From a virus: 48,901 bases of DNA. The notes beneath the pieces are model-generated. The model ran no database searches. It was given only the letters and a program-made list of their open reading frames with translations, and was not told the DNA's origin. The DNA is taken from positions 1 to 48,901 of IMG/VR virus record IMGVR_UViG_3300033148_009804; one strand, written 5' to 3'. Of the stretch, positions 2,711 through 44,278 are shown piece by piece. The first letter of the stretch is position 1. Each line of letters starts with the position of its first letter. The translations under genes and the position numbers were made by a program.

Positions 2711-2722
2711 GGAGATATTGAC

Positions 2723-3424
2723 GTGACTGAATCGCAACTCGCGGAGGCGCGGCGCCTCTACACGCTCTACTGGGGTGCGCACCCGAGATTCAACGTGCTC
2801 GAACGCATCCAGCCCGGGACGCACGTCCTCGACCTGGGCGCCGGCAGCGGACGCGCTGCCGACTGGTTCCTGCAGGATGGTCGCGGCACCGACCTTCTCT
2901 ACTGGCACGGCGTCGATCTGAACAAGCCGAAGCCGTCATACGCGAAACACGTAGAGTGGCGACAACTCGACCTCGACCAGGAACCGCTGCCCTGGCCGGA
3001 CGATTTCTTCGGCGCCGTCTGGGCGACGCACATTCTCGAACATCTCAAGAGGTTGCCCTTTACAATGAGAGAAATTGCGCGCGTGGCGCGCCCCGCAGCC
3101 ATCATCTACGCCGAGACGCCGACCCGCCACAGTCGCGTAGTGGCGACGCGCAGTGAACTCGCGTTGCGCGGCTACGAGGTCTCGATCGGCAATTTCAGCG
3201 ACGATCAGACGCATCAGCGGCCCTTCGAACCATGGGAATTGCGGGACAGGCTCGGCGCATATGGCTTCGCCCCCCTCGAACATGGCACGATCTGGAATGA
3301 TCGTCTCAGCTCAGTGCTGTTCGAGTCCGGGCGCGAAATCAACGACCCGCAAATGACAACGTGCGGCTGGTGGCTCAAAACCGGCTGGGCCGGCTACGCC
3401 ATCGGCAGAAAGCGAGGAGACTGA
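2723..3424 (+). CDS. Class I SAM-dependent methyltransferase
   Basis: A 233-residue methyltransferase with a GTG start preceded by AAGGAGAT at 2709-2716. Motif I (HVLDLGAGSGRAADWF, near residue 34) binds SAM, followed by HGVDLNK and by ATHILEHL near 101, the order seen in type 11/12 small-molecule and sugar methyltransferases. The C-terminal third has no recognisable substrate domain. The stop overlaps the next gene's ATG. In this operon a sugar or lipid O-methylation role is plausible but not shown. Confidence 0.8.
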   Translation: MTESQLAEARRLYTLYWGAHPRFNVLERIQPGTHVLDLGAGSGRAADWFLQDGRGTDLLYWHGVDLNKPKPSYAKHVEWRQLDLDQEPLPWPDDFFGAVWATHILEHLKRLPFTMREIARVARPAAIIYAETPTRHSRVVATRSELALRGYEVSIGNFSDDQTHQRPFEPWELRDRLGAYGFAPLEHGTIWNDRLSSVLFESGREINDPQMTTCGWWLKTGWAGYAIGRKRGD

Positions 3425-4020
3425 TGACTCCCGAAACCCTGTTGCGAGCGACCGAGGCCATGCGCGACCTGCCCTGGGAGCGAACGCGAAGCACCCGAAC
3501 CCTCGCCGCCGTGCTGCCCGGCCTCATGGTCGCCTGCGGCGCCCGCACCGCCGTCGAAATCGGCATCTGGAACGGCTTCGCGACCGCCGTTCTGGCCCGC
3601 ATCCTCGCCGCCATCGCCCCCGGCGACGGACTCCTGATCTCGTGCGACATCAATCCCGACTATTGCAAGCAGGGCCGCGCGGCCACCGCCGATCTCGGCG
3701 ACTCAATCCGCCACGAAGTGATCGCGAGCGACAGCCGCCTCGTCAACTGGCCCGCCGAACTCGCGAAAAACGACCGCGACGAGATTGACATCGCCTTCAT
3801 CGACGGCTGCCACGACTACGAAGTCGTCGCCGACGACATCTATCACCTCGCGCCGCTCGTCCGACCCGGCGGATTCCTTATCTGCCACGACTATACGCCG
3901 AAATATCCCGGCGTCTGGCAGGCAGTGAACGAGTTCGCGCTCGGCAGCCACATCTTCGTCATTCCATACGACGCCGAAAGCGGGTCGCTTCCCTGTGCCA
4001 TTCTCCAGAGGTCAGTCTGA
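3424..4020 (+). CDS. Class I SAM methyltransferase (family 24-like)
   Basis: A 198-residue O-methyltransferase-like protein. AVEIGIWNGFATAVLARIL near residue 41 is the SAM-binding motif I, IDIAFIDGCHDYEVVADDI near 121 is the typical 'DxxFIDGxHxYexvxxDi' signature, and GGFLICHDY follows. This pattern is that of the Methyltransferase_24 group, often found beside glycosyltransferases of cell-surface clusters. It overlaps the previous stop and the next start, so it is translationally coupled on both sides. Substrate unknown. Confidence 0.82.
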   Translation: MTPETLLRATEAMRDLPWERTRSTRTLAAVLPGLMVACGARTAVEIGIWNGFATAVLARILAAIAPGDGLLISCDINPDYCKQGRAATADLGDSIRHEVIASDSRLVNWPAELAKNDRDEIDIAFIDGCHDYEVVADDIYHLAPLVRPGGFLICHDYTPKYPGVWQAVNEFALGSHIFVIPYDAESGSLPCAILQRSV

Positions 4021-4838
4021 TGAAACACATCGGCCTGCTGACGTGCCGCAACGAGGTGGACATTATCGAATCCGGCCTCGCCGGCCACGCGCGATATTTC
4101 GACACCATCGTCGCCATCGACGGATCCGACGACGGCAGCCGCGAAGTGATCGAATGCTGTCCCGAGGTCGTGAAATGTTTCCACGACGAGGACATTCTCG
4201 CGCCCGGCGAGCGATTCAGCGACGGCCACCGCAGCGTCGCGCTCCAGTGGATCATCGAACACTACGGATTCAGGGACGTCTGGGTCACGCTCCTGCACCC
4301 TGACGAGTTCTGGGAAGACGATCCGGTCCTGATGGCAGAATTCGCCGCCGACGATGCCGCCACGTTCGTCCTCTGGGCCGAATTTCGCTTCTTTCTGCCC
4401 ACGGAACTGCAATTCTGGTGGCGAGACGCCCCGGCCCAATTCCTCAGTCTCACGGCCGAGAAGCGCCTCATGTATTATGCCGGCCCGTTCTTCGAGCGGC
4501 GGCAATTCTCGCTCAAAACGCACAGACACTACATCGTCGGTCGCGACCACGACACGCTGCCCGCCCCCGTTACGGTTCCGCACATGCGCTGGCACCACAT
4601 TCCCCGATTCCGCCACTACCCGTTTCGCAGCCCGGATCAGATTCAGAAACGCGCGAGCGAGCGTGGGCGGCGCATGATCCAACCCGATCACGACCCCTTC
4701 GTCGAGCAGCCCTTCGTTCGCGCCTTGCCCCAGCCGTCGAACTCGCCGCTCGCCGCCTGGGACAATGTCGGAATCTACGACGGCCCGGGCAGCCTCCCAA
4801 ACCCCGCATCGTTTCTGCCCGCCTGGTGGCGAGGCTGA
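4020..4838 (+). CDS. GT2-like glycosyltransferase
   Basis: A 272-residue protein whose N-terminus (IGLLTCRNEVDIIESGLAGH, then VAIDGSDDGSREVI near 37-50) matches GT-A glycosyltransferases of the family 2/92 'capping' type, which use a nucleotide-sugar donor and a DxD-like acidic motif. HPDEFWEDD near 95 is the probable metal-binding motif. The rest is rich in His, Trp and Phe and is not recognised. It is the last gene of the leftward end of the sugar block and is followed by a 334-bp non-coding stretch. Confidence 0.7.
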   Translation: MKHIGLLTCRNEVDIIESGLAGHARYFDTIVAIDGSDDGSREVIECCPEVVKCFHDEDILAPGERFSDGHRSVALQWIIEHYGFRDVWVTLLHPDEFWEDDPVLMAEFAADDAATFVLWAEFRFFLPTELQFWWRDAPAQFLSLTAEKRLMYYAGPFFERRQFSLKTHRHYIVGRDHDTLPAPVTVPHMRWHHIPRFRHYPFRSPDQIQKRASERGRRMIQPDHDPFVEQPFVRALPQPSNSPLAAWDNVGIYDGPGSLPNPASFLPAWWRG

Positions 4839-5352: not shown

Positions 5353-5570
5353 TGGCCTTTACAACCTGGGCTGCGCTCAAAACCGCGATCCTGAACGACC
5401 TCGCCGACGGCTCGGTCCTGACCCAACACTATTCGATCGACGGACGCTCGCGCTCGTTTCACAGTCTCGCCGAGGTTCGTGAGTTTCTGGCGTTTTGCGA
5501 CTCGAAAATCATGTCCTCGAACGCCCAATACGACCGCCACACACACGTCAAGTTCGCGAGGCCCCGCTGA
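5352..5570 (+). CDS. gpW-like head-tail joining protein
   Basis: A 72-residue protein. The pattern 'LxxLxxGxxVxxxxxDGRxxxFxSLxEvxxflxxxxxxi' (DGRSRSFHSLAEVREFLAF near 30-48) follows lambda gpW (68 residues), which seals the DNA channel after packaging and builds the tail-binding platform. It sits directly before the portal gene, the lambda order W-B. The start overlaps the preceding stop and the stop overlaps the portal ATG. Confidence 0.7.
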   Translation: MAFTTWAALKTAILNDLADGSVLTQHYSIDGRSRSFHSLAEVREFLAFCDSKIMSSNAQYDRHTHVKFARPR

Positions 5571-13252: not shown

Positions 13253-14611
13253 ATGGCCCAACTGAAAACCATCTTCGCCGGCGACGCCGGCAAACTCATC
13301 CGCGAGCAGCAAAAGGCCATCGACAGCCTCAGCAAGATGGTCGACAAATTGCGCGAGACCGGCCGCGAGAGTCGCAAATCGAACACAGAACACAAAACCG
13401 GACTCAACAGCATCATCCAGGGTGTCGGCGCAGCCGCCCTTGGTTACATGGGCCTCAGCCAGGCCATCGGCATGGCCCGCCAGGCAATGCAGGCGCTGAA
13501 TGAGGAGCGCGAGCGCGCCGCCTCGCAGATTCGCGAGGGCGAATTCGCCCGATCTTCTCTCGCGCAACTCGCCGGCGGCGACCCCGCCGAGATGCGCCGC
13601 ATGCTCACGGCCGCCGGCGCCAGCCGCGTCGAATTCGGCATGCCCGACATCGCCGCGCATCAACTCCAATTCTCGCTCGAATCACTCGGCCTGGGCCGCG
13701 AGCGCAAACTCTTCGGCAGCCTCTACGGCGTGGTCGAGGAACCAGCCCAAATCGCCGAGGCCGTCGGCACACTCCAGGCCGCGATGGGTATCAAGGAAAC
13801 AGGAAACGCACGCCAGGTCCTGAACAAACTCCTGGCCGCGTCTGCGGTATCGAAAACAACGCTCGAAGAATTTGGCCCGGCCGTTACCAGATCAGCGCAG
13901 GAAATCAAAGGCATCGGCGGGCGCGACGAGGAACTACTCGCAAGCCTCGCAGTCCTGTCGCGCGGCACGGCGTCAGCAGAAGAGGCCAGCACGCGAATCG
14001 GCGCCCTCGCGCGCGCAGGCCTGCGACATGGCCTTGGCGGCAAAGGGCTTCTGTCACTTGTCGATGAACTCGAAGCCAAGAACTTGAGCGAACAGGACAT
14101 GATCAAGTTCCTCGGCCGCGCCCGAGCATATCAGGGCTATCAGCTTATTCGCGGCAATCGCGGGCTGATCGAGGAAACCCTGGGCAAAGTCAGCGCCGCG
14201 CAGGCCGTCGGCCCCCGGGACATGACCGCCGGCGTCCTCGCCACCGTCGAGAGCGACGCGCAGATCGCAGCGGCGCGGCAAACTCGGCGAACAGAACAGG
14301 AACTGCAGATCAGCGAAGAAGAGGCGTTTGGACCGCACGGGCTACGCCTGCGCGACGAAGAAGCTCGCCTGCGCCGAGGGCTCATCGCTCCCGGCATCCA
14401 AGGGCCTGAACGGCTCATACGCGGAGCGGCCATCGGCGCCGCACGCGAAATGACAGGCTCCGTAGCCATCATGCAGCGTCTCGACCGCATCGTCGACGTC
14501 TGGGAAAAAATGATGCGCCGCACGCCGAACATCTATGGCATCGCGTATCAGGCGGGTCTATTCGGCGGCACCGAGCCGGCGCCGACGCCCGCGCCGCGTC
14601 CGACGGAGTAA
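13253..14611 (+). CDS. Tape measure protein (short)
   Basis: A 452-residue, almost wholly alpha-helical Ala/Glu/Arg-rich protein with a coiled N-terminus (IREQQKAIDSLSKMVDKL near 16-33), a hydrophobic Gly-rich segment (IIQGVGAAALGYMGLSQAI near 55-73) and long amphipathic helices. Size, composition and position after the assembly genes mark the tape measure that sets tail length. At the usual ~1.5 angstrom per residue it implies a short tail of roughly 65-70 nm. The Pro-rich C-terminus (PAPTPAPRPTE) is probably disordered. Confidence 0.75.
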   Translation: MAQLKTIFAGDAGKLIREQQKAIDSLSKMVDKLRETGRESRKSNTEHKTGLNSIIQGVGAAALGYMGLSQAIGMARQAMQALNEERERAASQIREGEFARSSLAQLAGGDPAEMRRMLTAAGASRVEFGMPDIAAHQLQFSLESLGLGRERKLFGSLYGVVEEPAQIAEAVGTLQAAMGIKETGNARQVLNKLLAASAVSKTTLEEFGPAVTRSAQEIKGIGGRDEELLASLAVLSRGTASAEEASTRIGALARAGLRHGLGGKGLLSLVDELEAKNLSEQDMIKFLGRARAYQGYQLIRGNRGLIEETLGKVSAAQAVGPRDMTAGVLATVESDAQIAAARQTRRTEQELQISEEEAFGPHGLRLRDEEARLRRGLIAPGIQGPERLIRGAAIGAAREMTGSVAIMQRLDRIVDVWEKMMRRTPNIYGIAYQAGLFGGTEPAPTPAPRPTE

Positions 14612-14619
14612 GAAAGCAA

Positions 14620-15003
14620 ATGGCGAACCCGAGCATCGGCGGTTACGAATTCATCACAATCGGCGGCCGCCTGACGCCTGAGGCCGAGGAGCCCGTCCCC
14701 TTCACTCGGCCTGGCGTCGACGGGACAGGCTACGTCAAGGTCGGCGCGCGCGCGCCCGAACGCGAATTTATCGCCGAGCGTGATTTCGACAACGCGACCG
14801 ACCTGACCGCTGCCATAAACAGTTATACAGCCCTGCGCAGCACACTCGTCACCGTCGTCGATGATGTCGGCGTCTCGGCCGCAAATGTCATGGTCCTCGA
14901 TGTCGAGGTCGTCGGCACCAGGGCCGTCGCCAGCGCCGTCGGCGGCATCACAGCCGGCAACTATCTTCTGCGGATCCGATTCCGCCTCCAGATGACCTCA
15001 TGA
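14620..15003 (+). CDS. Small minor tail protein
   Basis: A 127-residue beta-rich protein without recognised motif, between tape measure and the large tail-tip gene. Family features are weak: IGGRLTPEAEEPVPFTRPGVDG near 16-37 and a C-terminal strand NYLLRIRFRLQM. Its location fits a distal-tail or hub adaptor. The stop overlaps the next ATG. Confidence 0.5.
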   Translation: MANPSIGGYEFITIGGRLTPEAEEPVPFTRPGVDGTGYVKVGARAPEREFIAERDFDNATDLTAAINSYTALRSTLVTVVDDVGVSAANVMVLDVEVVGTRAVASAVGGITAGNYLLRIRFRLQMTS

Positions 15004-17162
15004 GCACAGTCGATGCCGTCAAATGGATCGCCTCTACACGCGAGACCTGGGCCGCCGAATGGACCGAACGGCCCGCCCTCGAGGTCCTGCGAGTCCGGTC
15101 GTGTCTGCAGCCGCAGCGCCCGTCTGCCGTCCTGCGATGGCGCTATGGCGAGGTCATGAACCAGGACGAAACGTCCTACAGCGCCGAGTCGCGCCTCTCG
15201 CTCGGCCGCCACTATCTCAAACTCACCGCCAACGTCCCTTCCGGCACCCTCTCCTGGTACGGGCGCATCTGGGACACCGAAGATCGGCCGCACGGTCGCA
15301 GCGCGACCGCGAGCGGCGAGCAGATCTTCCACGCCTTCGGCCTCGAAGAGGAACTATCTCGCATTGCCGTGACCGTCGCTTATTTCCACGACCCGAACGA
15401 CGCCGACAATCCCGGCTGTATCGACTGGTCCCCGCCTTTCAATCTGCGCCACGATCGAGGCGCCGCGCCGCTCGGCAACGCGGCCACCGTCATCTACACC
15501 GCGCCGACAGGGACGCAGATCGTCTTTGCCGGCCGCGTCGACGGCATCTCGCCCGACACCTGGTCGTGGAAAGACATTGTCGACTATCTGTTCGCCAACA
15601 TTGTTTCGACCGAGGTCACGTGGTCGATTCGCGACACGTCGGCCTATCAGGATCTGGACTATTTCGCGTCCGTCGTACAGGCCGACGGGCGCAGCGTTCG
15701 CGACATTCTGAATAGTGTGCTTGATCGTCGCCGCGGCTTCGTCTGGCACGTCGAAATGGCCGGCGATGAATCCGCCGCCGAGATCGTGATCGACTCCGTC
15801 CTGTCGAGCGACATCACCGTCAATGGCCACACGGTTCGCGACAACGACGACCCCGATTCCGTAACCGCGCACGGGACCCAGACCGGCCCCGAGGTGAGCA
15901 TCCTGCAGGCCGAGTCGGCCCGATACGACGCCGTCGAGGTGGTCGCCGGTCGCCTCGTCACCTGTTTCAGCATCTCATATCAGGACGGGACGCTCGAACG
16001 CGCATGGACCGCAGCCGAAGAGGTCGCATATCTCGCCGGCGCGCAGGACGCAACCGGCTACGCCTCCTGGACCAAGGCCGAAAAGCAGGCGCGGAGCGAT
16101 CGTCGCCGCGCCGCCGAGGACTTGGCGCGCGTCTTTCGCCTTTTTCGCATCCCCGCCGATTGGGATTGGACGGCAAAAGGCGGCGTCGGCGGCCTCGACT
16201 TCGCCTACGCCAACCCCATTTACGCCGACGGCGAACTCGACACGGCGCACGCGGCCGAATATTGGAATTCGTTCCGCCGCATCCTGCCGTATCTGCCGCT
16301 TGAAGACGGCCGCAACTACGCCAGCATGCACTTCCCGAGCGCGCGCATCACCGGCGATGAGCCGCGCTACATGACTCCTTTCGCAGTCGTGCGCGATGAG
16401 GCCGACAGCACCTGGCGACTCGTTCATGCGTTAGGGATGCGCGAACTCGGCGTCCCGAACGGCAGCGTCCGCGCGATCTCGCGCGAGATGGCCGTCGAAG
16501 TCTCGATGCATCCTGCCTATCTTCTCGCGCGCAATCACTGGACCGGCGCCGAGCCGGGCAAGGCCGAGCCGCGATTCGACTGGCAGCGCATGATCTTGAC
16601 CGTCGCCATGGAGACGGACGAGCGTCTGCGCGTCGCCGTTGTGCGACCGGGCCACAGCATCAGCAACACGAGTCGCCTGCTGCGCATCTTCCAACCCGAC
16701 ATGACGCTCTGGTACCTGCTCCCGCAGACCGTCGTCGGCATCGACGCCGACGGCGACCTCGAGCGCGTCGCCGCCGGCGCGACAAAAGACAAACGGATAC
16801 TGCGGGACGATACGAGCCGGGCCAGGGCACTGGCCGAGGCCGCCATCGCCTATTACGGCGCCGAGCGCGCAGCCATGCGCCTGCGCTGGACGGGCATCGA
16901 CGATCATATCCCGCTCGCGCGCCTCATCACCACGGTCGACATCGCCACCGGCGAATCAATCACAGCCAACAGCATCGTCAGCGAAATCACATGGAACGCC
17001 GAATCGCAAACCACTGAGGCCGAGACCGACTTCCGCGAACTCGACATCAACGGTCTGTTTGGAATGGGCAAGCCGGGCGCGCCGACCGCGCGCAGCGCCC
17101 AGCAACTCTGGACGGTTGCCTACGACGCCGCCATGCGCCGGGCGCGCGAGGAGGAGCAATGA
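15000..17162 (+). CDS. Large tail hub / tail-tip protein
   Basis: A 720-residue protein after the tape measure, in the position of the baseplate hub or central tail-tip protein. Segments such as TQIVFAGRVDGISPDTWSW near 170, DYFASVVQADGRSVRDIL near 219-236 and SAEVVAGR-type strands near 310 fit the nested beta domains of gpD/gp27-like hubs. The C-terminal third has NSIVSEITWNAESQTTEAETDF near 660, similar to the closing domain of hub proteins. No enzyme motif is visible. Starts at ATG 15000 overlapping the previous stop; ends four bases into the next gene. Confidence 0.6.
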   Translation: MSTVDAVKWIASTRETWAAEWTERPALEVLRVRSCLQPQRPSAVLRWRYGEVMNQDETSYSAESRLSLGRHYLKLTANVPSGTLSWYGRIWDTEDRPHGRSATASGEQIFHAFGLEEELSRIAVTVAYFHDPNDADNPGCIDWSPPFNLRHDRGAAPLGNAATVIYTAPTGTQIVFAGRVDGISPDTWSWKDIVDYLFANIVSTEVTWSIRDTSAYQDLDYFASVVQADGRSVRDILNSVLDRRRGFVWHVEMAGDESAAEIVIDSVLSSDITVNGHTVRDNDDPDSVTAHGTQTGPEVSILQAESARYDAVEVVAGRLVTCFSISYQDGTLERAWTAAEEVAYLAGAQDATGYASWTKAEKQARSDRRRAAEDLARVFRLFRIPADWDWTAKGGVGGLDFAYANPIYADGELDTAHAAEYWNSFRRILPYLPLEDGRNYASMHFPSARITGDEPRYMTPFAVVRDEADSTWRLVHALGMRELGVPNGSVRAISREMAVEVSMHPAYLLARNHWTGAEPGKAEPRFDWQRMILTVAMETDERLRVAVVRPGHSISNTSRLLRIFQPDMTLWYLLPQTVVGIDADGDLERVAAGATKDKRILRDDTSRARALAEAAIAYYGAERAAMRLRWTGIDDHIPLARLITTVDIATGESITANSIVSEITWNAESQTTEAETDFRELDINGLFGMGKPGAPTARSAQQLWTVAYDAAMRRAREEEQ

Positions 17163-18826
17163 GCCGCGCCGGCATGGGCCTCGTCGCGCGTCCCAACGGC
17201 CTCATCCGCGTGAAAAACGAGAGCGCTGAAACCGCCCCGCAATACTGCGTCGCCTGGGTCAAAGAGCCCGACACCACCACCGGCGCCTGCAAAATCAACA
17301 AGCCCGGCAGCGCCTCGGGCTGGGCCAAATACAAACAGGTGATTCTGCAAGAGGACATTGTCTCCGGCGCCACGGGCCTCGCCCGCGCCTCCGGTACCTC
17401 ATACCTCTGGTCCGATTCCCCCTATGTACCGTCCCCGGACCACATGGGATTCTATAAGGTCCGATTCACCGGCTATGCCGGTTACTGGCGCGCCGCCGCC
17501 GACACCGGCGGCCCGTTTTACGGCATCGCCCAGATCGACACCAAAGACGTCAGCGGCACCCGCTACCTGCTCCTCGTCCACATCCTCGAGGAGGAGTTGC
17601 GCAACAACACACAGTATTCGAGTTCATCGTCGAGCAGCAGTTCCAGTCAGAGCAGCCCGTCAAGTTCATCCTCGACTTCTTCATCCAGTTCCAGCACCAG
17701 CAGTTCGTCCTCTTCATCGAGTTCATCGTCCAGCTCCAGCACAAGCTCTTCATCTTCATCGAGTTCATCGTCCAGCAGCAGTTCTTCGTCATCATCGTCG
17801 AGCAGTTCCAGCCAGAGCAGCCCGTCGAGCTCTTCATCCTCGTCCAGTTCCAGCGAATCGCTGTCGTCCAGTTCGTGGTCGAGTTCGAGTTCATCGTCCT
17901 CATCGTCGAGCAGCAGTTCGTCATCTTCGTCGAGCAGCAGCAGCAGCCAGAGCAGCCCGTCCTCGTCATCTTCTTCCAGTTCGGGATCGAGTTCGTCATC
18001 CGATTGGTGCGTCTGTCAGAACTATGGCGAGCCCGAGACCTGCACGGCCTGCGGCGACGACGCGACGCCGGGGGCAGTCTGCGTCGTCATCTCGGGCCAG
18101 ACGACGCCCGCCGGCGCCAACGGCACTTACCTTGCAACTCAGACCGCCGCCTGCAGCTACAGCGACGGCGACCTGACAGTATTTTTTGACACTAACTCAG
18201 TGCGCGTCGTCTGGAACGATGGCGTCCACATGGTCGAGTGGTTCATCGTCACAGCCTCGCCCTGCAGTTACGGCGGCGCCGTGCCGATCGCCGACTGGAG
18301 CGGCCCCGGCGCCACCGGCGACGGCACCTGCACCATTCAAATCTGCGTCAGTTCGTCTTCGTCGAGTTCGTCGTCTTCATCGTCGAGTTCGCCGTCATCC
18401 ACTTCGTCCTCGTCATCGAGCAGTTCATCGTCTTCCTCTTCGAGTTCTTCGTCATCCACTTCGTTCTCGTCATCGAGCAGTTCGTCATCTTCGTCGAGCA
18501 GCACTTCATCGTCCAGCGCTACCGGTGGCGGCGGAAATTCCTGCTGCGGCGAGTGCTATTGCTACGTGGAGGCTGGTTCGGCGCAAGAGCAGCTCGAATG
18601 CCAGATCGCCGGAGGATTCTGCGACAGTGACAACAACGGATGCAGCGGCGAAGACACGACCTACTGCACTTACAACAAGGGCAGCACGGATTGTGACGAA
18701 GGGCTCGGTGACGTTCGAGGCTCCTGGTGCGATCACACCAATTGTTCGGAAGCCGAGTTTGGGTTGCCACCGAATCATGTGCTTTACAATTACGCGAGCG
18801 ACGATTGTGTGGGAGAAATAACATGA
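17159..18826 (+). CDS. Tail-associated protein with two polyserine tracts
   Basis: A 555-residue protein. Residues 1-150 form a globular, virion-like domain. Residues about 154-281 are almost pure Ser with three QSSPSSSS units and single Trp/Glu/Leu breaks. Residues 282-395 form a Cys-containing domain (CVCQNYGEPETCTAC). Residues about 397-455 are a second Ser/Thr tract. The last 100 residues are Cys-rich (CCGECYCY, then CSGEDTTYCTY). All six Ser codons are mixed, so the tracts are kept by protein selection and not by triplet slippage. It follows the tail hub gene and precedes a glycosyltransferase, so it is probably an extended, possibly O-glycosylated fibre or adhesin. Confidence 0.7.
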   Translation: MSRAGMGLVARPNGLIRVKNESAETAPQYCVAWVKEPDTTTGACKINKPGSASGWAKYKQVILQEDIVSGATGLARASGTSYLWSDSPYVPSPDHMGFYKVRFTGYAGYWRAAADTGGPFYGIAQIDTKDVSGTRYLLLVHILEEELRNNTQYSSSSSSSSSSQSSPSSSSSTSSSSSSTSSSSSSSSSSSSSSTSSSSSSSSSSSSSSSSSSSSSSSQSSPSSSSSSSSSSESLSSSSWSSSSSSSSSSSSSSSSSSSSSSSQSSPSSSSSSSSGSSSSSDWCVCQNYGEPETCTACGDDATPGAVCVVISGQTTPAGANGTYLATQTAACSYSDGDLTVFFDTNSVRVVWNDGVHMVEWFIVTASPCSYGGAVPIADWSGPGATGDGTCTIQICVSSSSSSSSSSSSSSPSSTSSSSSSSSSSSSSSSSSSTSFSSSSSSSSSSSSTSSSSATGGGGNSCCGECYCYVEAGSAQEQLECQIAGGFCDSDNNGCSGEDTTYCTYNKGSTDCDEGLGDVRGSWCDHTNCSEAEFGLPPNHVLYNYASDDCVGEIT

Positions 18827-19380
18827 GCTGCCCGCATGAAACGGCGCGTCGGTTTCGACAAGGCCCTGACCATACGCTGATACCGTCGATCGAGTGCGCA
18901 CGCATGTTCGATGCCCTTGGCTGGACGGTCGCCGGGCCCCTCAGTATCTGCGAGGCATGCCAATCCGCGGGCGCAGATAAGTTGCCTGCTGAGGAATCGG
19001 AGTTTGGCCGCGCCCGGATCGCCACGTTGATTGGAGCACGCCTCCAACATGGCGATATGCCCGAATGGCAGGCCGCAAACCCGATTGACATTCATGCGCT
19101 TTTCACGCGCTACGCAGGCATGGTCACGCGCGAGAAACTCGAGACTTGTTACGACGCTATGACGCTGCGCTGGATCGCGACGCCGGAAACCCGGAACGGG
19201 AAAGCCTACGGACACAGCGAAGCGACGGCCCGCACCAAACTCAAAAAGATCGCCACCGACCACAAGCTTACAGCACGTTACATCGAGCACGCATCATGGC
19301 TGACGCGGGAAATAGCAGCCGGTCTCCTCGCAGATATGAGGGCGGGCGGCTGCACCGGCTGCAGGGGGGGCGCTGCATGA
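18823..19380 (+). CDS. Hypothetical protein between adhesin and glycosyltransferase
   Basis: A 185-residue protein, not recognised. The start at 18823 overlaps the previous stop (ATGA) and is chosen over upstream ATGs for that coupling. A helical core (LFTRYAGMVTREKLETCYDAM near 91-111) lies between Cys residues at both ends (ICEAC near 42; CTGC near 178). Its stop overlaps the glycosyltransferase ATG. It might be a chaperone or cofactor of the adhesin/transferase pair; this is only position-based. Confidence 0.55.
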   Translation: MSCPHETARRFRQGPDHTLIPSIECARMFDALGWTVAGPLSICEACQSAGADKLPAEESEFGRARIATLIGARLQHGDMPEWQAANPIDIHALFTRYAGMVTREKLETCYDAMTLRWIATPETRNGKAYGHSEATARTKLKKIATDHKLTARYIEHASWLTREIAAGLLADMRAGGCTGCRGGAA

Positions 19381-22268
19381 ACGCGACCGAAATTCTGGCG
19401 TCTGCAAAACGAACGCACTGCGGCTCCTGCGGCCAGCAGACGCCGCTCCAGGCGCGCGCGGCGCTGGCCGAGCCCGACTATCCCATGGACCTGATCCTGA
19501 CCTCGGTCCTGGCCGCCGGCGACGCCGTCGTGCTCTCGGCCGCGATTCGCGACCTGCATCGATGCTACGAGGGATGTTTCCGCACGCACGTTATCACCTG
19601 CGACGATTCGATGCTCTTCGACGCCGCGCCCTGGCAGACGCCCCGCGCAGATCTCGACGAACCGGAGCCGCTTGATCTTCATTACCCGGCGGTGAAGCGC
19701 TCGAATCAGCGCCAACTCCACTTCCTCGTCGGTTACATCGAGTATCTGAACGAGATGCTCGGCCTCAAGATCCGCCTCACGGAATTTCGCGGCGACCTGC
19801 ACCTGACCGACGACGAGCGCGCGATGCGCCCGATGCCCGAACCCTACTGGCTTCTGCTCGCCGGCGGCAAGAGAGATTATTCGGCAAAGACCTGGCCCGC
19901 TGCGCGCTGGCAGACCGTCGTCGATATGCTCAAGAGCCGAATCGCCTTCGTCCAGGCGGGCCACGTCGAGCATCAGCACCCGGCGCTGCGCGACGTCGTC
20001 GACGTGCGCTCGCAAACCAACCTCCGCCAACTCGCGCAGCTCGTCTATCACTCCGAGGGCGTCGCCTGCGGCGTCACGGGCGCCATGCACATGGCCGCCG
20101 CCTTCAACAAACCATGCGTCGTCGTCGCCGGCGGACGCGAGCCCCCCTGGTGGGAAGCATATACGCGGGCGAATCGCGACGCGACCCTGCGCCACTTCGA
20201 CCCGGACTACCCCCGCCTCGGCACCCAGGCCGACGACATGATCGAGCATCGCTTCCTCGACACCATCGGCCGCCTCGACTGCTGCAAGCGCCGCGGCTGC
20301 TGGCGGAGCAAGGTCCTCGACGGCGAGCCCCGCGAGCGCTGCCCTCACCTCCACGACGACGGCGACGGCCAGATCTACCCCGAATGCCTGAGTCTCATCG
20401 AGCCCGAGGACGTTGCCGAGGCAATTACGAGTTACGCTCTCGCGCCCGCACCCGTTCCGGCCCCCTGCGTCACTCTTGGCCGTTCGACAATCCGCAATCC
20501 GCAATCCGCAATCCGCAATCGTTTGCACGTGCTGGCGAATATGATCTGTCGCGGCGGCGGCGAATACTCGACGCTCGAACTCATGCGCCGCCTGCGCACG
20601 CGCAGCGAGCATGAGATTCACTTCTGGCCGCTGACGCCGATCAATCCCTCCTGGCGCGTCGAAGTCTTCAACGCCTGCGACCGGGTCCATCGCAAGTGGA
20701 CCGAGATCGACATCGCCGAGACCGATCATGTCTTGATCTACGCCAATGACTGGCCGTACAAACTCCAGGGCGCCGATGCCGATGTCTGGCGCGCGCGCCT
20801 CGAAAACGCCGCCTCGGTCCAGATCGTCCTCAACTTCGTCTGCGGCCCGATCCCGAAACAGCACTGGCTCGCGAAAAACCTGACCGGCGTCTATTTCCTC
20901 AGTTCGAGCCTCGAGGCCGGCTGGAAAAACGCCGTCGCCGCCGGCCCCCTCGCCGACGTCCCGACGTCTGTGCTGCCGCCGCCGACCGACCTCGAACCGT
21001 TTTTTGCCATAGATCATTCCGCAATCCGCAATCCGCAATCCGCAATTGTTATCGGTCGCCTGGGCGGCTCCGCGCACAAACTCCCGCCCGACGCCGCCGC
21101 CTGGTATCGCGCCCAGGCCGAGCGCCTGCCCGGGGCGCAATTCTGGTTCATGCCCGCGCCGCCGGATCTGGCCCGCGAATTCGCCGACGATCCGCAGTTC
21201 CGATTCCTGGCCCGGGACGAGATTCCCGTCGCCGAATTTCTCGCCGCCTCCGACATCTTCCTCTACCCGGTCTCGCCGCGGGTCAAGGACCAGGGCCCGC
21301 GCGTGGTCATGGAGGCGATGGCCGCCGGGTGCGCCGTCCTGACTGAGCCGCGCGACGGCTGCCTCGACCGGATCGAACACAATGTCACCGGCCTCCACGC
21401 CGCCTGGCCGGCAGCGATGGAAATTGTCCTGCATGAACTCGTCAAAGACGCGCCCCTTCGCGCCCGTCTCGGCGCCGCCGCCCGCGACCACGCCCGCACC
21501 TGGACCCCTGACGCCTGGGCCGATCAGATCATCGCCTACGCCGCGGCACCAGCAACGCCCCAAATGCGTGCCCCGGCGCCCGCGCGCCCGAACCCGCCCC
21601 CGCCAGGCGCAAAGACGTCACGCATCGCTCTCGCGTATAGTTTCCACGGTCCCCACCGCAAGCATTTTGGCGCGCAAGGCTATTATGACCTGCCCGCGGC
21701 CGAGCACTGGGAAATGCTCCGCGCCGCGCGCCGCCGCCATAACCCCGACAGTCGCTACCGCGAGATTCTGAGCGCCGTCGCGTTGCAGGACGATGTTCCG
21801 AACGACCTCGCGCGCGCAATGACAATCGTCAACATCGACGCCGAGCCTGGCTGGCAGCAGGGCGCCATGGACGCGATTCGCCAGGCCCTCGAAACCGCCG
21901 CCACGCTCGCCGCCGACTGGTTACTTTTCACGGCCGAAGACATCTTGCCGCTGTCGCTCGATTTCGTGTCCTCGCTCGTCGCGACCGCTCAGGAGCATGA
22001 GGCCGACTGGTGCGGCCAGCATCACAGCAGCGGCATCTGCACCCAGGTCTTTGCCGCTCGCGTCGCGTCATTCGTCGACGCTCGCGGCGCCTGCATCATT
22101 CCGCCCAAGCCTGGACATGGCGGCTGCGAGACATTCATTCTCAACTGGCTGCGCGAGAGCGGCCGGTCTTGGCACTTCGCCCCGAGCAAACGCTACGCGC
22201 ACGAACGCGATCTCGCCGCCATGGCCGCGCGCGTGCTGACGCTCGAACAGGAGGCCGCCTGTGCATAA
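19377..22268 (+). CDS. Three-domain glycosyltransferase (GT9 + GT4 + third domain)
   Basis: A 963-residue fusion. Residues about 85-340 match GT9 (heptosyltransferase-like): YWLLLAGGKRDYSAKTWP and VACGVTGAMHMAAAFNKPCVVV. Residues about 385-720 match GT4: DIFLYPVSPRVKDQGPRVVMEAMAAG is the donor-binding EX7E-type region. Residues about 745-963 (RIALAYSFHGPHRKHFG, and LAADWLLFTAEDI) form a third domain that resembles a GT-A fold with an acidic motif; this is less certain. Two heptanucleotide repeats are inserted in frame at or near domain joins. The ATGA overlap couples it to the gene before; the polyserine protein is two genes upstream. Confidence 0.75.
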   Translation: MNATEILASAKRTHCGSCGQQTPLQARAALAEPDYPMDLILTSVLAAGDAVVLSAAIRDLHRCYEGCFRTHVITCDDSMLFDAAPWQTPRADLDEPEPLDLHYPAVKRSNQRQLHFLVGYIEYLNEMLGLKIRLTEFRGDLHLTDDERAMRPMPEPYWLLLAGGKRDYSAKTWPAARWQTVVDMLKSRIAFVQAGHVEHQHPALRDVVDVRSQTNLRQLAQLVYHSEGVACGVTGAMHMAAAFNKPCVVVAGGREPPWWEAYTRANRDATLRHFDPDYPRLGTQADDMIEHRFLDTIGRLDCCKRRGCWRSKVLDGEPRERCPHLHDDGDGQIYPECLSLIEPEDVAEAITSYALAPAPVPAPCVTLGRSTIRNPQSAIRNRLHVLANMICRGGGEYSTLELMRRLRTRSEHEIHFWPLTPINPSWRVEVFNACDRVHRKWTEIDIAETDHVLIYANDWPYKLQGADADVWRARLENAASVQIVLNFVCGPIPKQHWLAKNLTGVYFLSSSLEAGWKNAVAAGPLADVPTSVLPPPTDLEPFFAIDHSAIRNPQSAIVIGRLGGSAHKLPPDAAAWYRAQAERLPGAQFWFMPAPPDLAREFADDPQFRFLARDEIPVAEFLAASDIFLYPVSPRVKDQGPRVVMEAMAAGCAVLTEPRDGCLDRIEHNVTGLHAAWPAAMEIVLHELVKDAPLRARLGAAARDHARTWTPDAWADQIIAYAAAPATPQMRAPAPARPNPPPPGAKTSRIALAYSFHGPHRKHFGAQGYYDLPAAEHWEMLRAARRRHNPDSRYREILSAVALQDDVPNDLARAMTIVNIDAEPGWQQGAMDAIRQALETAATLAADWLLFTAEDILPLSLDFVSSLVATAQEHEADWCGQHHSSGICTQVFAARVASFVDARGACIIPPKPGHGGCETFILNWLRESGRSWHFAPSKRYAHERDLAAMAARVLTLEQEAACA
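20489..20520 (+). repeat. (AATCCGC)n heptamer repeat 1
   Basis: About 4.6 perfect copies of AATCCGC. Read in frame it encodes the heptapeptide IRNPQSA repeated, between the GT9 and GT4 domains. Three heptamers equal 21 bases, so added triplets of units keep the frame. Confidence 0.9.
21016..21046 (+). repeat. (AATCCGC)n heptamer repeat 2
   Basis: About 4.4 copies of the same heptamer, the first with one mismatch, in the same reading phase (SAIRNPQSAI), between the N- and C-lobes of the GT4 domain. Confidence 0.9.
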
Positions 22269-22755
22269 GAGCAGTTACGAGGAGATGCGCATCGTCCTCG
22301 ACACCTATTTCGGCGACCGGCGCGAGACGCCGATGCGCGTGCTCGACGTTGGCAGCCGCGCCGTCGGCACCCAGAAAGGCACCTACCGCGAGCACATGGC
22401 GCCGTGCTGGCAATATCTCGGCTGCGACACGGAACCAGGCCGCAATGTGAATGTCGTCCAGCCCGACCCCTATCTCCTCCCGTTCAACGAGGCCACGTTC
22501 GATGTGATTCTCAGCGGCCAGTGCCTCGAACACGTGCCGAACCCGTTCCGCCTGGTCAATGCAATGGCCCGCGTCCTACGCCCGGCCGGCCTGATGATTC
22601 TGACCGCGCCCTGGCAATGGCGCATTCATCGCTACCCTATTGACTGCTGGCGGATCCTGCCCGACGGCATGAAGGTTCTGCTTGAAGACGCCGGCCTTGT
22701 GGCCCTGCGCACATGGACTCGTGAAAACGATTGCTGGGGAGTCGGCAAAAAATGA
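22261..22755 (+). CDS. Class I SAM methyltransferase (type 11)
   Basis: A 164-residue methyltransferase with GTG start and AGGAGG at 22250-22255. RVLDVGSRAVG near 26-36 is motif I, GCDTEPGRNVNVVQPDPYLLPFNEATFDVILSGQCLEH near 60-97 holds the acidic ribose ligand and the post-II region, and RVLRPAGLMILTAPW follows. The last residues (CWGVGKK) suggest a complete but short protein. It overlaps both neighbours. Directly after the glycosyltransferase, it may methylate the added glycan. Confidence 0.8.
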   Translation: MHKSSYEEMRIVLDTYFGDRRETPMRVLDVGSRAVGTQKGTYREHMAPCWQYLGCDTEPGRNVNVVQPDPYLLPFNEATFDVILSGQCLEHVPNPFRLVNAMARVLRPAGLMILTAPWQWRIHRYPIDCWRILPDGMKVLLEDAGLVALRTWTRENDCWGVGKK

Positions 22756-23090
22756 GCAACGGCCGCGACGCGCAGAGCGTGCTGATCGACGAGATCGATC
22801 AGGTGATCGGCGAGATTCGCAACACCGCGTCAGAGGTCGCCTGCTCCGCGCATCCGCCACTCGCCTCCGGCGTGATCGTCCTGCTCAAGTGCGAGCGCGT
22901 TCGGCAACAGCGCGTCCAGGGCGAGGAACTGCTCGAACATCACGGGCGGCAGGAATCCCGCCGCGACCTCAAGAACTTCCTGATCCGCTGCGCCATCGCC
23001 TGCGGATTCGTCTGCCTGGGCGCTGTCGCCGCCGCGATCATGCCGAATCTCACCATCTGGACGCGTCTTCTCGAGGTTTTCAAGCCGTGA
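22752..23090 (+). CDS. Single-span membrane protein
   Basis: A 112-residue protein with a charged helical N-terminal part and one transmembrane helix near 76-98 (FLIRCAIACGFVCLGAVAAAI). It overlaps both neighbours (ATGA, GTGA). Holin, spanin or membrane regulator are all possible; its place in the post-tail region would suit a lysis role, but no motif supports one. Confidence 0.55.
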   Translation: MSNGRDAQSVLIDEIDQVIGEIRNTASEVACSAHPPLASGVIVLLKCERVRQQRVQGEELLEHHGRQESRRDLKNFLIRCAIACGFVCLGAVAAAIMPNLTIWTRLLEVFKP

Positions 23091-23623
23091 CGCCGGACCA
23101 GGAACAACTCGTCCTTGACAATCTGACCGTCGTCTACGCCGCCGTGCGACGCCTGCACGTCTATCGTCGCGATGTCGACGACGCGCGCGCGGCCGGAATC
23201 CTCGGCCTGATCGAGGCGGCCGAAAAATGGGAGCCCGCGCGAGGCGACAACTTTGGAGGTTTTGCCTGGGTCTATGTGCGCCGTGAAATAGTCGCGTGGT
23301 TTCGTCAGCGCTTCGGGCGCCCGCCTCATTCGCACCCAGCGGCCCTGCCGCTGACTCGCAACATACTCGCGACAGTCGCCTCCGCGGACGCTGACCCCAG
23401 TGACGCCTGCACCCGCGCTGACACGGCCGCCGCGCTGCGCCGAATCGTCACCTCGCTCCCGCCCCGCGAGCGCTTCGTGATCGAGCAACTGTTTTTCCAC
23501 GACGAGACCCCGACCGCGGTCGCGCCGAGGCTCGGAATCTCGACCTCTCGCATTGCCCAGGTGCGCAACGAGGCCCTCAGCCGGCTGCGCTGCCGGTTGA
23601 TCGACAGGGGGATGAGGAACTGA
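23087..23623 (+). CDS. Sigma-70 family RNA polymerase sigma factor
   Basis: A 178-residue sigma-like protein (GTG start overlapping the previous stop). Region 2 is seen at about 27-70: RRDVDDARAAGILGLIEAAEKWEPARGD, then FGGFAWVYVRREIVAW, the core-binding and -10 recognition part. Region 4 is at about 122-172: SLPPRERFVIEQLFF followed by the helix-turn-helix TPTAVAPRLGISTSRIAQVR. It would redirect host RNA polymerase, probably to late or lysis promoters of this phage. Region 3 is short, as in minimal sigma factors. Confidence 0.85.
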   Translation: MTPDQEQLVLDNLTVVYAAVRRLHVYRRDVDDARAAGILGLIEAAEKWEPARGDNFGGFAWVYVRREIVAWFRQRFGRPPHSHPAALPLTRNILATVASADADPSDACTRADTAAALRRIVTSLPPRERFVIEQLFFHDETPTAVAPRLGISTSRIAQVRNEALSRLRCRLIDRGMRN

Positions 23624-28405: not shown

Positions 28406-28413
28406 GTCTCACG
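28401..28413. terminator. Palindrome at the convergent stops
   Basis: CGTGAG-T-CTCACG spans the two stop codons of the convergent XRE and integrase genes. The loop is too small for a normal hairpin and no T run follows; it may only be a weak barrier. Confidence 0.25.
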
Positions 28414-29515
28414 CCCCGGACGCCAGGTCGAGGCGATCAGTCGCCCGCTGCAAATTCTCGGGCGCCCGGCCGACGTAGCGCTGCGTCGTCGAGACGAGGC
28501 GATGCCGCGCCAGACGCATCGCCGTAAAAACGTCGACCGTCTCGGTCAGCAGCGAGAGAAACGTTCGGCGCAGATCGTGCGGCGTGACGTGCCGAATCCC
28601 GGCCCGCCGCGCCGCGCGCTCGATCCGGCGCCGGATCGTGTGTCGTTCGAGCGGCTTGTCGAGCCGCTCATCACCCTGGACGCCGGCGCAGAACAGCGGC
28701 CCCTCGAGACGCCGGCCCATGGCCTCGGTGAGCACGCCCCTGATCGCCGCCGGGATCGGTACCGACTGCCGCCGACCGCCTGACGTCGACCTGTCGGTTT
28801 TCGCCTCCGGCAACCAGAGCATGTTCCGCCGCAGATCAACGTTTTCACATCGCAGCGCCGCGAGTTCTGACACTCGCAGCCCCGTGTGCAGCAGCGTCAG
28901 AATGATCCAGCGGAGTTTCGCGCCCCGCCGCCGCGGCTTGTGCGCGTCGAGCGCCCGGGCCCCCTTGAGCAGCGCCCGACATTCCTCGCGCGACAGCGGC
29001 TCCACCTCGCGCCGCCGATACGACAGTAATTTCACCCCCTCGGCCGGGCTGCGCTCGATGTAGCCCCAGACGACAGCCTTCCGCAGCATCCCGCGCAACA
29101 GAAATATCTCGTGATTGACCGTACAGGGCGATACGAGCCTGCGCCTGGCCGCGCGGTAGCCCTCACAATCCTCGGCTGAGATCTCGGCGAGCAGACGATC
29201 CGGCCCGAAATGGCGCGTCAGGTGCCGGAGGCCCCGCTTGAGTTGCACGCGATAACTCTCCGACCAGCCGGCGTCCGCCTTCTGGTACCAGCGATCAGCG
29301 AACTCGGCGAACGTCACCTCGTTGCCGGCCCGGTCGCCGCCCGGTTCCGCCTGATCTGAAACGGCTTCAAGTTTCGCGCGCAGCACCTCGCGCTCAAGCG
29401 CCTTGCGCGCCTCCTCTGCCGTCTCCGGGTCTTTTCCGACGGCCTGCCGAATTTTCTTGCCATCGAGAACGGCATAGACGTAGAAAACATCTCCCCGCCG
29501 ATACAAAGTCGCCAT
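28409..29515 (-). CDS. int: Tyrosine-type site-specific integrase
   Basis: A 368-residue tyrosine recombinase that inserts the phage genome at attB. An arm-binding/SAM-like N-terminal region (about 1-160) precedes the catalytic domain. Active-site residues are visible: Arg214 in TGLRVSEL, Lys239 in EAKTD, His313 and Arg316 in HDLRRTF, His338 in ARHRL, and the nucleophile Tyr347 in TTQRYVG. On the minus strand GGGAGG precedes the ATG. attP lies about 120 bp upstream of its start, the usual arrangement. Confidence 0.95.
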   Translation of the reverse strand: MATLYRRGDVFYVYAVLDGKKIRQAVGKDPETAEEARKALEREVLRAKLEAVSDQAEPGGDRAGNEVTFAEFADRWYQKADAGWSESYRVQLKRGLRHLTRHFGPDRLLAEISAEDCEGYRAARRRLVSPCTVNHEIFLLRGMLRKAVVWGYIERSPAEGVKLLSYRRREVEPLSREECRALLKGARALDAHKPRRRGAKLRWIILTLLHTGLRVSELAALRCENVDLRRNMLWLPEAKTDRSTSGGRRQSVPIPAAIRGVLTEAMGRRLEGPLFCAGVQGDERLDKPLERHTIRRRIERAARRAGIRHVTPHDLRRTFLSLLTETVDVFTAMRLARHRLVSTTQRYVGRAPENLQRATDRLDLASGA

Positions 29516-42449: not shown

Positions 42450-43304
42450 TTGAGCACAACGCAACCGACACGGCCTGTGCTTCGATACCACGGCGGCAAG
42501 TGGCAACTCGCGCCCTGGATCATCGCGTACTTCCCCCCGCATCGAGTCTACGTCGAGCCATTCGGCGGCGCAGCGTCCGTCCTGCTGCGCAAACCGCGGA
42601 GCTATGCGGAAATCTACAACGACATCGACGGCGAAGTCGTAAATCTCTTTCAGGTCGTTCGGGATCGAGGAAAAGAGCTCGCGGCGGCGCTGACGCTGAC
42701 GCCCTTCGCCCGGGCCGAATATCGGGCAGCATTCCAGCCCTCAGACGATCCGCTCGAATCCGCGCGCCGCCTCATCGTCCGCAGTTTCATGGGCTTCGGG
42801 TCCGATTCGATACTCCTCAGCCGCGCGAGCGGATTCCACGCCAGCAGTAACCGTTTGGGAACGACGCCCGCCCATGACTGGCGTCATTATCCCGCCTGCC
42901 TCGCGGCAATAATCGAGCGCCTGCGCGGAATCGTGATCGAGCAACGCCCCGCCCTCGAAGTCATGCAGCAACACGACGGCCCGGGCACCCTGCATTATTG
43001 TGACCCACCTTACGTCCAGGACACGCGCTCCAGCCTGGCTCATCAGGCGAGATGCTACAAGCACGAAATGAGCGCCGCCGATCACGTCGCCTTGGCGGAA
43101 TTTCTCCACGCCTGTCAGGGATTCGTGGTTCTGAGCGGCTACGACTGCGAATTGTACCAGGGCCTCTACGGCGATTGGCCATCGACGCACAAAGAGGCCC
43201 TGGCGGACGGCGCCCGCCCCCGCGTCGAGCATCTCTGGCTATCGCCCAGGACCGAGGCCGCACTACTGCCGCTCTTCGCCAATCTGCATGAGGACACGAC
43301 ATGA
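42450..43304 (+). CDS. DNA adenine-N6 methyltransferase (Dam/D12 class)
   Basis: A 284-residue Dam-like enzyme. RYHGGKWQLAPWI near 12-24 (the GGK start typical of D12 enzymes), VEPFGGAASVL near 35-45 (SAM-binding motif I), YNDID near 56-60 and CDPPY at 184-188 (the catalytic DPPY) are all in place. The only usable start is TTG at 42450; an in-frame ATG is not present before motif I. Methylation may block restriction or regulate transcription. It overlaps the next gene by four bases. Confidence 0.9.
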   Translation: MSTTQPTRPVLRYHGGKWQLAPWIIAYFPPHRVYVEPFGGAASVLLRKPRSYAEIYNDIDGEVVNLFQVVRDRGKELAAALTLTPFARAEYRAAFQPSDDPLESARRLIVRSFMGFGSDSILLSRASGFHASSNRLGTTPAHDWRHYPACLAAIIERLRGIVIEQRPALEVMQQHDGPGTLHYCDPPYVQDTRSSLAHQARCYKHEMSAADHVALAEFLHACQGFVVLSGYDCELYQGLYGDWPSTHKEALADGARPRVEHLWLSPRTEAALLPLFANLHEDTT

Positions 43305-44278
43305 CGCCGAATAGCGCGACGATCAAGAGGGACGAATCACGAATCCACGTCGTGCGCGAGCGGGGGGGGATGGGCGACTGGATCTGTATCAGCGCCGCGC
43401 TCGACGGCCTCGCCGAGAAATGGCCGCGCCGCCCGATCACGGTCTGGGGTCCGGCGAAATATCGCGACCTCATCCTGCAGGGGCACTGCGACGGCATGGA
43501 CCGACCCAACTGCGCCTGGCAGGCGACCGACGAACTCACCCTCCGCGACCGACCCGACGCGCCGCTGCGCCCGCAATTCGACGGCACCGTCATTGATCTG
43601 AACGGGCCATGTCCCGCGAAAGCGCACGAGCGCGCCACCGCCGGCAAGCCGTTCAGGTCACGAATCGAACTTTTCGCCGAGGCGGCCGGCGTCACAGCGC
43701 AGCGGCCAGTCTTCAGCCTCAACCCCGACGAACTCACGACGGCCACGAGCCAGCGCCAGGATCTGTCGCGCAGCATCGCGATTGCGCCGCACGCCGCCGC
43801 AATCGTCCGATCGTGGCCGCCGTCACATTGTCGAATGCTCGCCGCGCATCTCGAGCAGGCCGAGATTCCCGTCTTGTGGCTCGACGAGACCGAGGACTAT
43901 ATTCGCGACCTGCCCGGGCTCAAATCCTGGGGCCTGAGTTGGAGCGAACTGGCAATTACGCTGATTCGCTGCCGCTGTCTGATCAGCGTCGATACCGGCA
44001 TCCTGCACCTGGCCGGCGCCCTGACCGTGCCCGCGCTCGGGCTCTTCGGCCCGACCGACGCGCGCCTCGCGGTGAACTTCTACCCCCTCTCGGCCGCGAT
44101 TCAGGGCTCGCGCCCGCCCGGCCTGGACTGCCCCTGTCACTATCAGAACGAGCGCGGATTCGGCGCCCTCGCCTGCGGCGCCGGCGAGCCCGGATGCGGC
44201 TCGATGCGCTCTTTGAAGCCCGCCGAAGTGGCCCGCGCCCTCGTCGTCACCCTGAAAAATTCGAGGCTGCCAAAATGA
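43301..44278 (+). CDS. GT9-family (heptosyltransferase-like) glycosyltransferase
   Basis: A 325-residue protein. RERGGMGDWICISAALDGLA near 19-38 is the N-terminal glycine loop of GT9 enzymes, and SVDTGILHLAGALTVPALGL followed by FGPTD near 228-252 is their donor-binding C-terminal signature. Heptosyltransferases transfer ADP-heptose to LPS core, but GT9 also covers other sugars. It overlaps its neighbours by four bases on each side. Substrate unknown. Confidence 0.82.
   Translation: MTPNSATIKRDESRIHVVRERGGMGDWICISAALDGLAEKWPRRPITVWGPAKYRDLILQGHCDGMDRPNCAWQATDELTLRDRPDAPLRPQFDGTVIDLNGPCPAKAHERATAGKPFRSRIELFAEAAGVTAQRPVFSLNPDELTTATSQRQDLSRSIAIAPHAAAIVRSWPPSHCRMLAAHLEQAEIPVLWLDETEDYIRDLPGLKSWGLSWSELAITLIRCRCLISVDTGILHLAGALTVPALGLFGPTDARLAVNFYPLSAAIQGSRPPGLDCPCHYQNERGFGALACGAGEPGCGSMRSLKPAEVARALVVTLKNSRLPK

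Follow-up and report, generated by a model that had tools for sequence, protein, structure and literature searches.

A candidate phage-encoded poly-serine O-glycosylation system centered on a Cys-finger GT9 glycosyltransferase

In the serine-rich repeat (SRR) adhesins of Gram-positive bacteria, the acceptor is encoded beside the GtfA/GtfB transferases and sugars are added sequentially. A further case is found in the BAHT family (TibC/Aah; PDB 4RAP, 4RB4) of dodecameric enzymes with ADP-heptose as donor, where the protein-Ser O-heptosyltransferase TibC accepts Ser, not Thr, requires the four Cys of its finger as iron ligands for activity, and needs both Lys230 and Arg286 (PMC4358343). For phages, passages of PMC12619734 and PMC11256854 that refer to Freeman 2023 describe mycobacteriophages that encode the enzymes glycosylating their capsid and tail tube. 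Here, we analyzed the IMG/VR virus record IMGVR_UViG_3300033148_009804 over its whole length of 48,901 bases (the window), for which an original prediction had proposed a phage-encoded O-glycosylation system with the SRR adhesins as its parallel.

Phage setting and gene anatomy of the poly-serine locus

Judged by its gene content, which includes a prohead protease and a capsid protein in addition to the features listed below, the window phage is a temperate tailed phage. The ends of the record share a 33-bp overlap (6-38 = 48869-48901), which identifies it as a circular assembly, so that 43-48.9 kb and 0-5.5 kb are contiguous and form one cassette block between terminase and portal. No close relative was found among GenBank phages, and the relatives of the enzyme in Planctomycetota and Bacteroidota are a suggestive hint, and only that, to the host. 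The features relevant to the analysis are as follows.

5495-7237: lambda-type portal
13253-14611: PhageMin_Tail protein (Pfam)
15000..17162, + strand: 720-aa tail-module protein, following the PhageMin_Tail protein and directly 5' of the poly-Ser gene
17159..18826, + strand: 555-aa poly-Ser protein, proposed acceptor
17618..18001, + strand: Ser tract 1, residues 154-281 (115/128 Ser)
18350..18517, + strand: Ser tract 2, residues 398-453 (51/56 Ser)
18823..19380, + strand: 185-aa small protein, translationally coupled
19377..22268, + strand: three-domain glycosyltransferase, 963 aa (ATG at 19377)
19470..20459, + strand: domain 1, finger-type GT9, proposed Ser O-glycosyltransferase (alignments, AF2, Foldseek)
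20280..20387, + strand: four conserved Cys codons (at 20280, 20298, 20340 and 20385), candidate metal finger
20488..20515, + strand: (CAATCCG)n heptamer array, located in the linker between GT9 and GT4; possible length switch
20517..21581, + strand: domain 2, GT4-type (GT-B; PF00534/PF13692), proposed extension enzyme
21018..21045, + strand: second (CAATCCG)n heptamer array, within the GT4 domain
21582..22265, + strand: domain 3, GT-A-like (weak NTP_transf_3 in Pfam; AF2 model)
22261..22755, + strand: class I methyltransferase, 164 aa (GTG start; PF08241/PF13489, Methyltransf_11), proposed glycan cap
28409-29515, minus strand: tyrosine integrase
39493-41730: terminase

The candidate glycosylation unit comes after the PhageMin_Tail protein and two more genes of the tail module. 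The stop codon of the 720-aa gene overlaps the poly-Ser start codon (ATGA), an AGGAGG-type ribosome-binding site precedes the poly-Ser gene, and every stop/start pair overlaps across the poly-Ser, small protein, transferase and methyltransferase genes. The anatomy described in the original prediction was confirmed, namely the 555-aa protein with two Ser tracts and multiple Cys (23 in total), the four genes with overlapping stop and start codons, and a GT9-GT4-third-domain transferase followed by a methyltransferase, the last two according to Pfam matches. A sigma-70-like factor (regions 2 and 4; 22682-23623) is encoded directly 3' of the glycosylation genes, the start of its ORF at 22682 overlapping the methyltransferase gene. 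Elsewhere, the phage encodes a DNA polymerase III beta clamp (34962-36242) and, near the record end, a DUF5131 protein (46476-47426).

Both tracts are ~90% Ser, with a longest pure run of 23 residues, and tract 1 is broken by three QSSP interruptions. A strict poly-Ser DNA pattern matched twice in the window vs 0 matches expected in shuffles, and the exact QSSP-type DNA pattern had no match in viral contigs. All six Ser codons (mixed TCN and AGY) occur in the tracts at frequencies similar to those seen genome-wide, and AT-rich phage relatives encode the same tracts with other Ser codons, so that Ser is evidently kept at the protein level; on the same grounds, we reject the idea that the tracts arose by DNA slippage or are a chance ORF. 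The poly-Ser protein has no family match in Pfam or PHROG, and reading its sequence by eye revealed neither LPXTG nor a signal-like N-terminus. Its N-terminal domain has no relatives in viral contigs or GenBank phages, and the label "tail" thus rests on gene position. Searches with the 720-aa protein gave no match in Pfam, PHROG or phage sequences, those with the 720-aa protein or the full-length transferase found no relatives in viral contigs and GenBank phages, and the 185-aa protein had no Pfam match and no relatives among the fetched loci.

The original prediction also placed further donors and transferases at 389-4838 and 43301-45408. These cassettes contain the following candidates.

1766-2710: putative cyclase
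2723-4020, + strand: two methyltransferases, possible accessory cassette (2723..4838)
4020-4838, + strand: weak GT2, same possible accessory cassette
43301..44278, + strand: second GT9, possibly accessory (PF01075; no C...CW (Cys-Trp finger) motif)

Thus, the additional transferases were recovered in the form of the second GT9 and the weak GT2, and the proposed donors were not, as neither cassette yielded a nucleotide-sugar synthesis gene.

The three-domain transferase and its finger-type GT9 domain

Domain 1 matches the Pfam GT9 family (PF01075) and, on its alignments, belongs to a GT9 subfamily that appears so far undescribed. In the subfamily alignment of 88 sequences, four Cys, the GD motif and the Lys motif each reach ~99% conservation. 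The finger Cys are residues 302, 308, 322 and 337 of the window transferase; the last three are in register with TibC Cys342/358/370, the first lies near Cys339, offset by a gap, and TibC Cys342-Trp343 aligns with the finger Cys column. A PDB profile search with the GT9 alignment matched LPS heptosyltransferases and TibC, the latter being the only PDB sequence match that runs through the Cys region. TibC Lys230 and Arg286 fall on conserved columns of the phage alignment, two of the five TibC functional residues differ in the phage family (Thr226 to Asp, Trp305 to His), and TibC Asp110 was matched to the GD motif solely on the analogy with WaaC.

AlphaFold2 modeled domain 1 with pLDDT 94.5 and pTM 0.93. 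Foldseek matched the model to GT9 enzymes and TibC alike (TM about 0.6, prob 1.00), and LPS enzymes of the WaaC/WaaF type fit the fold about as well as TibC, with 3tov matching too. The N-terminal beta-barrel of TibC is missing, since ~30 residues precede the GT9 domain and the model opens with a Rossmann-like strand/helix. A viral-structure search returned an uncultured Caudovirales protein auto-named "Glycosyltransferase Aah/TibC", meaning that the resemblance had already been noticed by annotation software; we found no paper on it in the open-licence literature. The finger-GT9 subfamily had no match in 50,697 GenBank phages, and searches of phage and plasmid records with its representatives likewise found none, leaving the subfamily with no cultured phage model.

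The fold also accommodates a different reading, in which the transferases modify host LPS or capsule (serotype conversion, superinfection exclusion), the poly-Ser tracts are plain flexible linkers, and the two are merely neighbors in an accessory zone. GT9 enzymes are typically LPS heptosyltransferases, the WaaC/WaaF and 3tov matches agree with such a role, the phage is temperate by its integrase, and a passage of the Teredinibacter genome paper (PMC2699552) describes poly-Ser linkers in bacterial polysaccharide-degrading enzymes. The bearing of the gene pairing on this reading is taken up below.

Relatives of domain 2 occur in the poly-Ser loci L055, L095, L108 and L053. For domain 3, the structure prediction called for at the outset returned a GT-A fold (AF2, pLDDT 75), with COLGALT1 (collagen galactosyltransferase) and nucleotide-sugar transferases as top structure matches. 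Homologues of domain 3 are present in L370, L403 and L414, and the one in L370 is likewise fused to a finger-GT9. In that locus, a fusion of finger-GT9, FkbM methyltransferase and Erv1/Alr sulfhydryl oxidase (L370:7811-11329) lies beside a Cys-rich poly-Ser protein whose ORF overlaps the GT9 start, the same arrangement as in the window. L108 carries a DegT aminotransferase, and L054/L407, like L370, carry methyltransferase fusions; these additions are consistent with variable elaboration of a putative glycan.

Neither heptamer array in the window transferase gene is a multiple of three in length, and both are absent elsewhere in the window and from the fetched loci. By computation, loss or gain of one unit would shorten the product to 386-414 or 652-658 residues, leaving the GT9 domain by itself or together with a portion of GT4. 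The arrays might act as a phase switch controlling glycan extension, or might simply be a repeat that is common in such genomes.

Genetic pairing of poly-serine genes with finger-type GT9 genes

We scanned viral contigs by transferase sequence alone, using the GT9-domain alignment A1, and kept 80 of the 179 relatives obtained. Although A1 was built from poly-Ser-associated loci, the new loci lie on other contigs, with only L363 falling in a known record (that of L033). We counted a locus as positive if it contained an ORF in which 14 or more of 20 residues are Ser; this applied to 32 of the 80 GT9 loci, compared to 2/120 and 0/120 in two control sets (2/240; p = 8e-20). The GT9 loci are individually longer (1,366 kb in total, with 2,160 kb covered by the 240 control loci), which cannot account for the pairing because the difference per kilobase is roughly 25-fold. 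When poly-Ser was defined more strictly and the loci were dereplicated at 70% identity, 20 of 51 clusters were positive. For the majority of finger-GT9 clusters, the ~10 kb fetched contains no poly-Ser ORF; several negative loci have Ser-rich ORFs that are weaker, or poly-Ser in another part of the record. Only Ser was enriched at GT9 loci in a residue test that also covered Thr, Gly, Ala, Pro, Asn, Gln, Glu and Lys.

The two genes also lie close together. The median gap between poly-Ser and GT9 genes is 370 bp and usually <1 kb, at most one gene intervenes in 17/24 pairs, and 22/24 pairs share a strand, giving a combined p = 5e-15 for gap and strand relative to random placement inside the same loci, a comparison that removes effects of composition and lineage. 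On the GT9 tree, the poly-Ser label requires 16 changes vs a shuffled mean of 16.9, so it is scattered over the whole tree, and this test gave no sign of confinement to a clade. The pairing is not due to chance. It might still be a lineage artefact, with some phage groups carrying both poly-Ser genes and GT9 cassettes without functional coupling, given that most loci come from uncultured phages of probably few host phyla and that the controls were not host-matched. The within-locus gap test, the scatter of labels on the tree and the occurrence of the pair in non-phage loci (see below) make this explanation quite improbable.

The converse search began from the acceptor side. Scanning 2.9 million viral contigs with the poly-Ser DNA pattern gave at least 119 stretches; matches to the pattern among controls were antisense readings of collagen-like or acidic repeats. 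A phmmer search with the window transferase found relatives within the listed poly-Ser loci L099/L117, L095, L108, L054, L071, L055 and L053, and finger-GT9 ORFs were found, among the matches listed, at 7/119 poly-Ser loci vs 0/240 controls. We then ran family searches over whole records, comparing 50 poly-Ser records with 50 controls (25 collagen-like, 25 random). GT9 was present in 9/50 vs 0/50 (p = 0.0013), GT4 in 18/50 vs 7/50, and either family in 26/50 vs 7/50 (p = 5e-5), p-values that are somewhat optimistic in that the poly-Ser records include near-duplicates. Against the collagen-like tail-gene controls alone, the figures for either family were 26/50 vs 6/25 (p = 0.018), with GT9 in 0/25 and GT4 in 6/25 of these neighborhoods. 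The linkage in phages anticipated by the original prediction was thus recovered from both directions. Ser-rich genes without transferase neighbors, which it had named as evidence to the contrary, account for about half of the records: 24/50 had no GT9 or GT4 match, many of them fragments, and poly-Ser therefore extends more broadly than the finger-GT9 enzyme.

In each of five cases (L093, L108, L096, L050 and L430), two or three distinct virion-type proteins of one phage end in or carry poly-Ser tails, the tails often being broken by a single R, K, L or Q. In these phages, poly-Ser looks as if it were a portable tag.

Among bacteria, a scan of 84,980 species genomes for finger-GT9 returned one strong relative, in Rhodocytophaga aerolata (L441), located 267 bp upstream of a gene whose 820-aa product contains a poly-Ser tract. 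Ordinary GT9 enzymes that lack the finger are encoded at the remaining 79 loci, and poly-Ser was found in 0/79. We also sampled three phyla and obtained five matches from 392 Planctomycetota genomes, one from 395 Bacteroidota genomes and five from 388 Verrucomicrobiota genomes. Counting L528-L530 as one and including the fragmentary L532, there are 7 distinct bacterial finger-type loci, 3 of which contain poly-Ser (L441, L531 and L533). L531 (Planctomycetota) encodes a 657-aa protein with SSSSSP repeats on a 7.7-Mb contig, and L533 (Planctomycetota) a 227-aa near-pure poly-Ser protein with a Tat-like N-terminus, on a short contig of limited context. The finger-GT9 loci L539 and L540 of Verrucomicrobiota are devoid of poly-Ser in the fetched stretch, as are three Verrucomicrobiota relatives that lack the finger motif. 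By these sequence matches, the pair appears to occur outside recognizable phages as well, in Rhodocytophaga aerolata and two Planctomycetota genomes, where the loci either sit on long contigs of bacterial origin or show no recognized phage genes. In L533 (6680-7363 and 2505-3716), the near-pure poly-Ser protein and finger-GT9 are accompanied by a Cys-rich protein resembling a radical-SAM/SPASM maturase.

These data bear on what the transferase modifies. That the enrichment is Ser-specific, that collagen-like neighborhoods are poor in these families (GT9 0/25, GT4 6/25), that the median gap is 370 bp, and that the finger subfamily pairs with poly-Ser in bacterial genomes too, all argue against modification of the host surface, which we regard as unlikely. 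Glycosylation of other virion proteins, such as capsid or tail tube, with a separate role for the poly-Ser neighbor, has a precedent in the mycobacteriophage accounts cited above; because it accounts neither for the Ser specificity nor for the pairing seen where a poly-Ser protein stands isolated, as the 227-aa protein of L533 does, we judge it improbable. Hypermodification of phage DNA, with poly-Ser present by coincidence, would accord with phage GTs for DNA (Pyle 2024, as cited in a passage of PMC12619734) and with the D12 and C5 methylases of the window, of which the C5 cytosine methylase (48118-48741, near the record end) covers its family profile only in part. The finger, however, resembles that of a protein-modifying enzyme, and a non-systematic look around finger-GT9 genes revealed no linkage to base-hypermodification genes, rendering this last option very improbable.

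Proposed system and comparison with known systems

We consider it likely, from the genes and their pairing, that the phage makes a poly-Ser tail-region protein together with the enzymes that glycosylate its Ser tracts. Phages with this pairing probably sugar-coat their own particles, given that it recurs across numerous unrelated phages and in a handful of bacteria. The scheme that we infer for catalysis, the sugar, the sequence of steps, the place in the virion and the biological role is as follows. Domain 1, the four-Cys-finger GT9, would act in the cytoplasm, either while virions assemble or earlier, and attach the first sugar straight to the side chains of Ser in the flexible tracts; the donor would probably be host ADP-heptose, supplying a heptose, or a related compound. 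This sugar would then be extended by the GT4 and GT-A domains, and the methyltransferase (22261-22755) would cap the glycan. The product would be a tail bristle with dense glycosylation, whose possible roles are to protect the particle, to withstand proteases or to promote adhesion.

We further lean, modestly, towards a widespread and previously undescribed poly-Ser O-glycosylation system. In it, finger-GT9 enzymes of numerous uncultured tailed phages, and of certain Planctomycetota and Bacteroidota, would start glycans on poly-Ser tracts, and these tracts would serve as portable glycosylation tags on several virion proteins. If so, poly-Ser virion proteins and orphan GT9 cassettes of uncultured phages would become one testable enzyme-substrate system, TibC-type Ser glycosylation would extend beyond autotransporters, and poly-Ser could provide a simple artificial acceptor for protein glycosylation.

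Compared to described systems, the core of the original prediction, a phage-encoded O-glycosylation system, is strongly supported by the Ser-specific, two-way gene linkage and the TibC homology, whereas the donor-synthesis component was not found and the SRR adhesins proved to be the wrong parallel. They share with the window a Ser-rich protein encoded beside transferases, but the window system has no DUF1975 (Pfam search), accessory Sec, signal peptide or LPXTG, and its first enzyme is a GT9 rather than the GtfA/GtfB GT4 pair; assignment to the Gram-positive SRR adhesins was rejected on the absence of DUF1975 and LPXTG. The LPS heptosyltransferases WaaC/WaaF have the GT9 fold with its GD and K motifs in common with domain 1 but no Cys finger, and fingerless chromosomal GT9 genes are not near poly-Ser genes (0/79). 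Mycobacteriophages, as portrayed in the passages cited above, resemble the window phage in having phage-encoded GTs proposed to act on their own structural proteins; there, the C-termini of capsid and tail tube are modified, whereas here a dedicated candidate poly-Ser acceptor is paired with a finger-GT9.

The closest functional parallel of domain 1 appears to be TibC. With the BAHT family it shares a GT9-like GT-B catalytic domain, a four-Cys finger after the C-lobe with the last three Cys in register (iron binding is predicted here), conserved Lys230 and Arg286, and a gene adjoining that of a Ser-containing acceptor. It differs in the absence of the TibC N-terminal beta-barrel (about 97 residues), in the replacement of Thr226/Trp305, in its candidate acceptor (a poly-Ser protein, either of a phage or secreted, where BAHT enzymes have a beta-helical autotransporter), and in its frequent fusion to further GT or methyltransferase domains. 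Because the barrel and the two sugar-site residues are missing, we do not file the phage GT9 family as BAHT, and propose instead that the phage finger-GT9 works like a member of that family.
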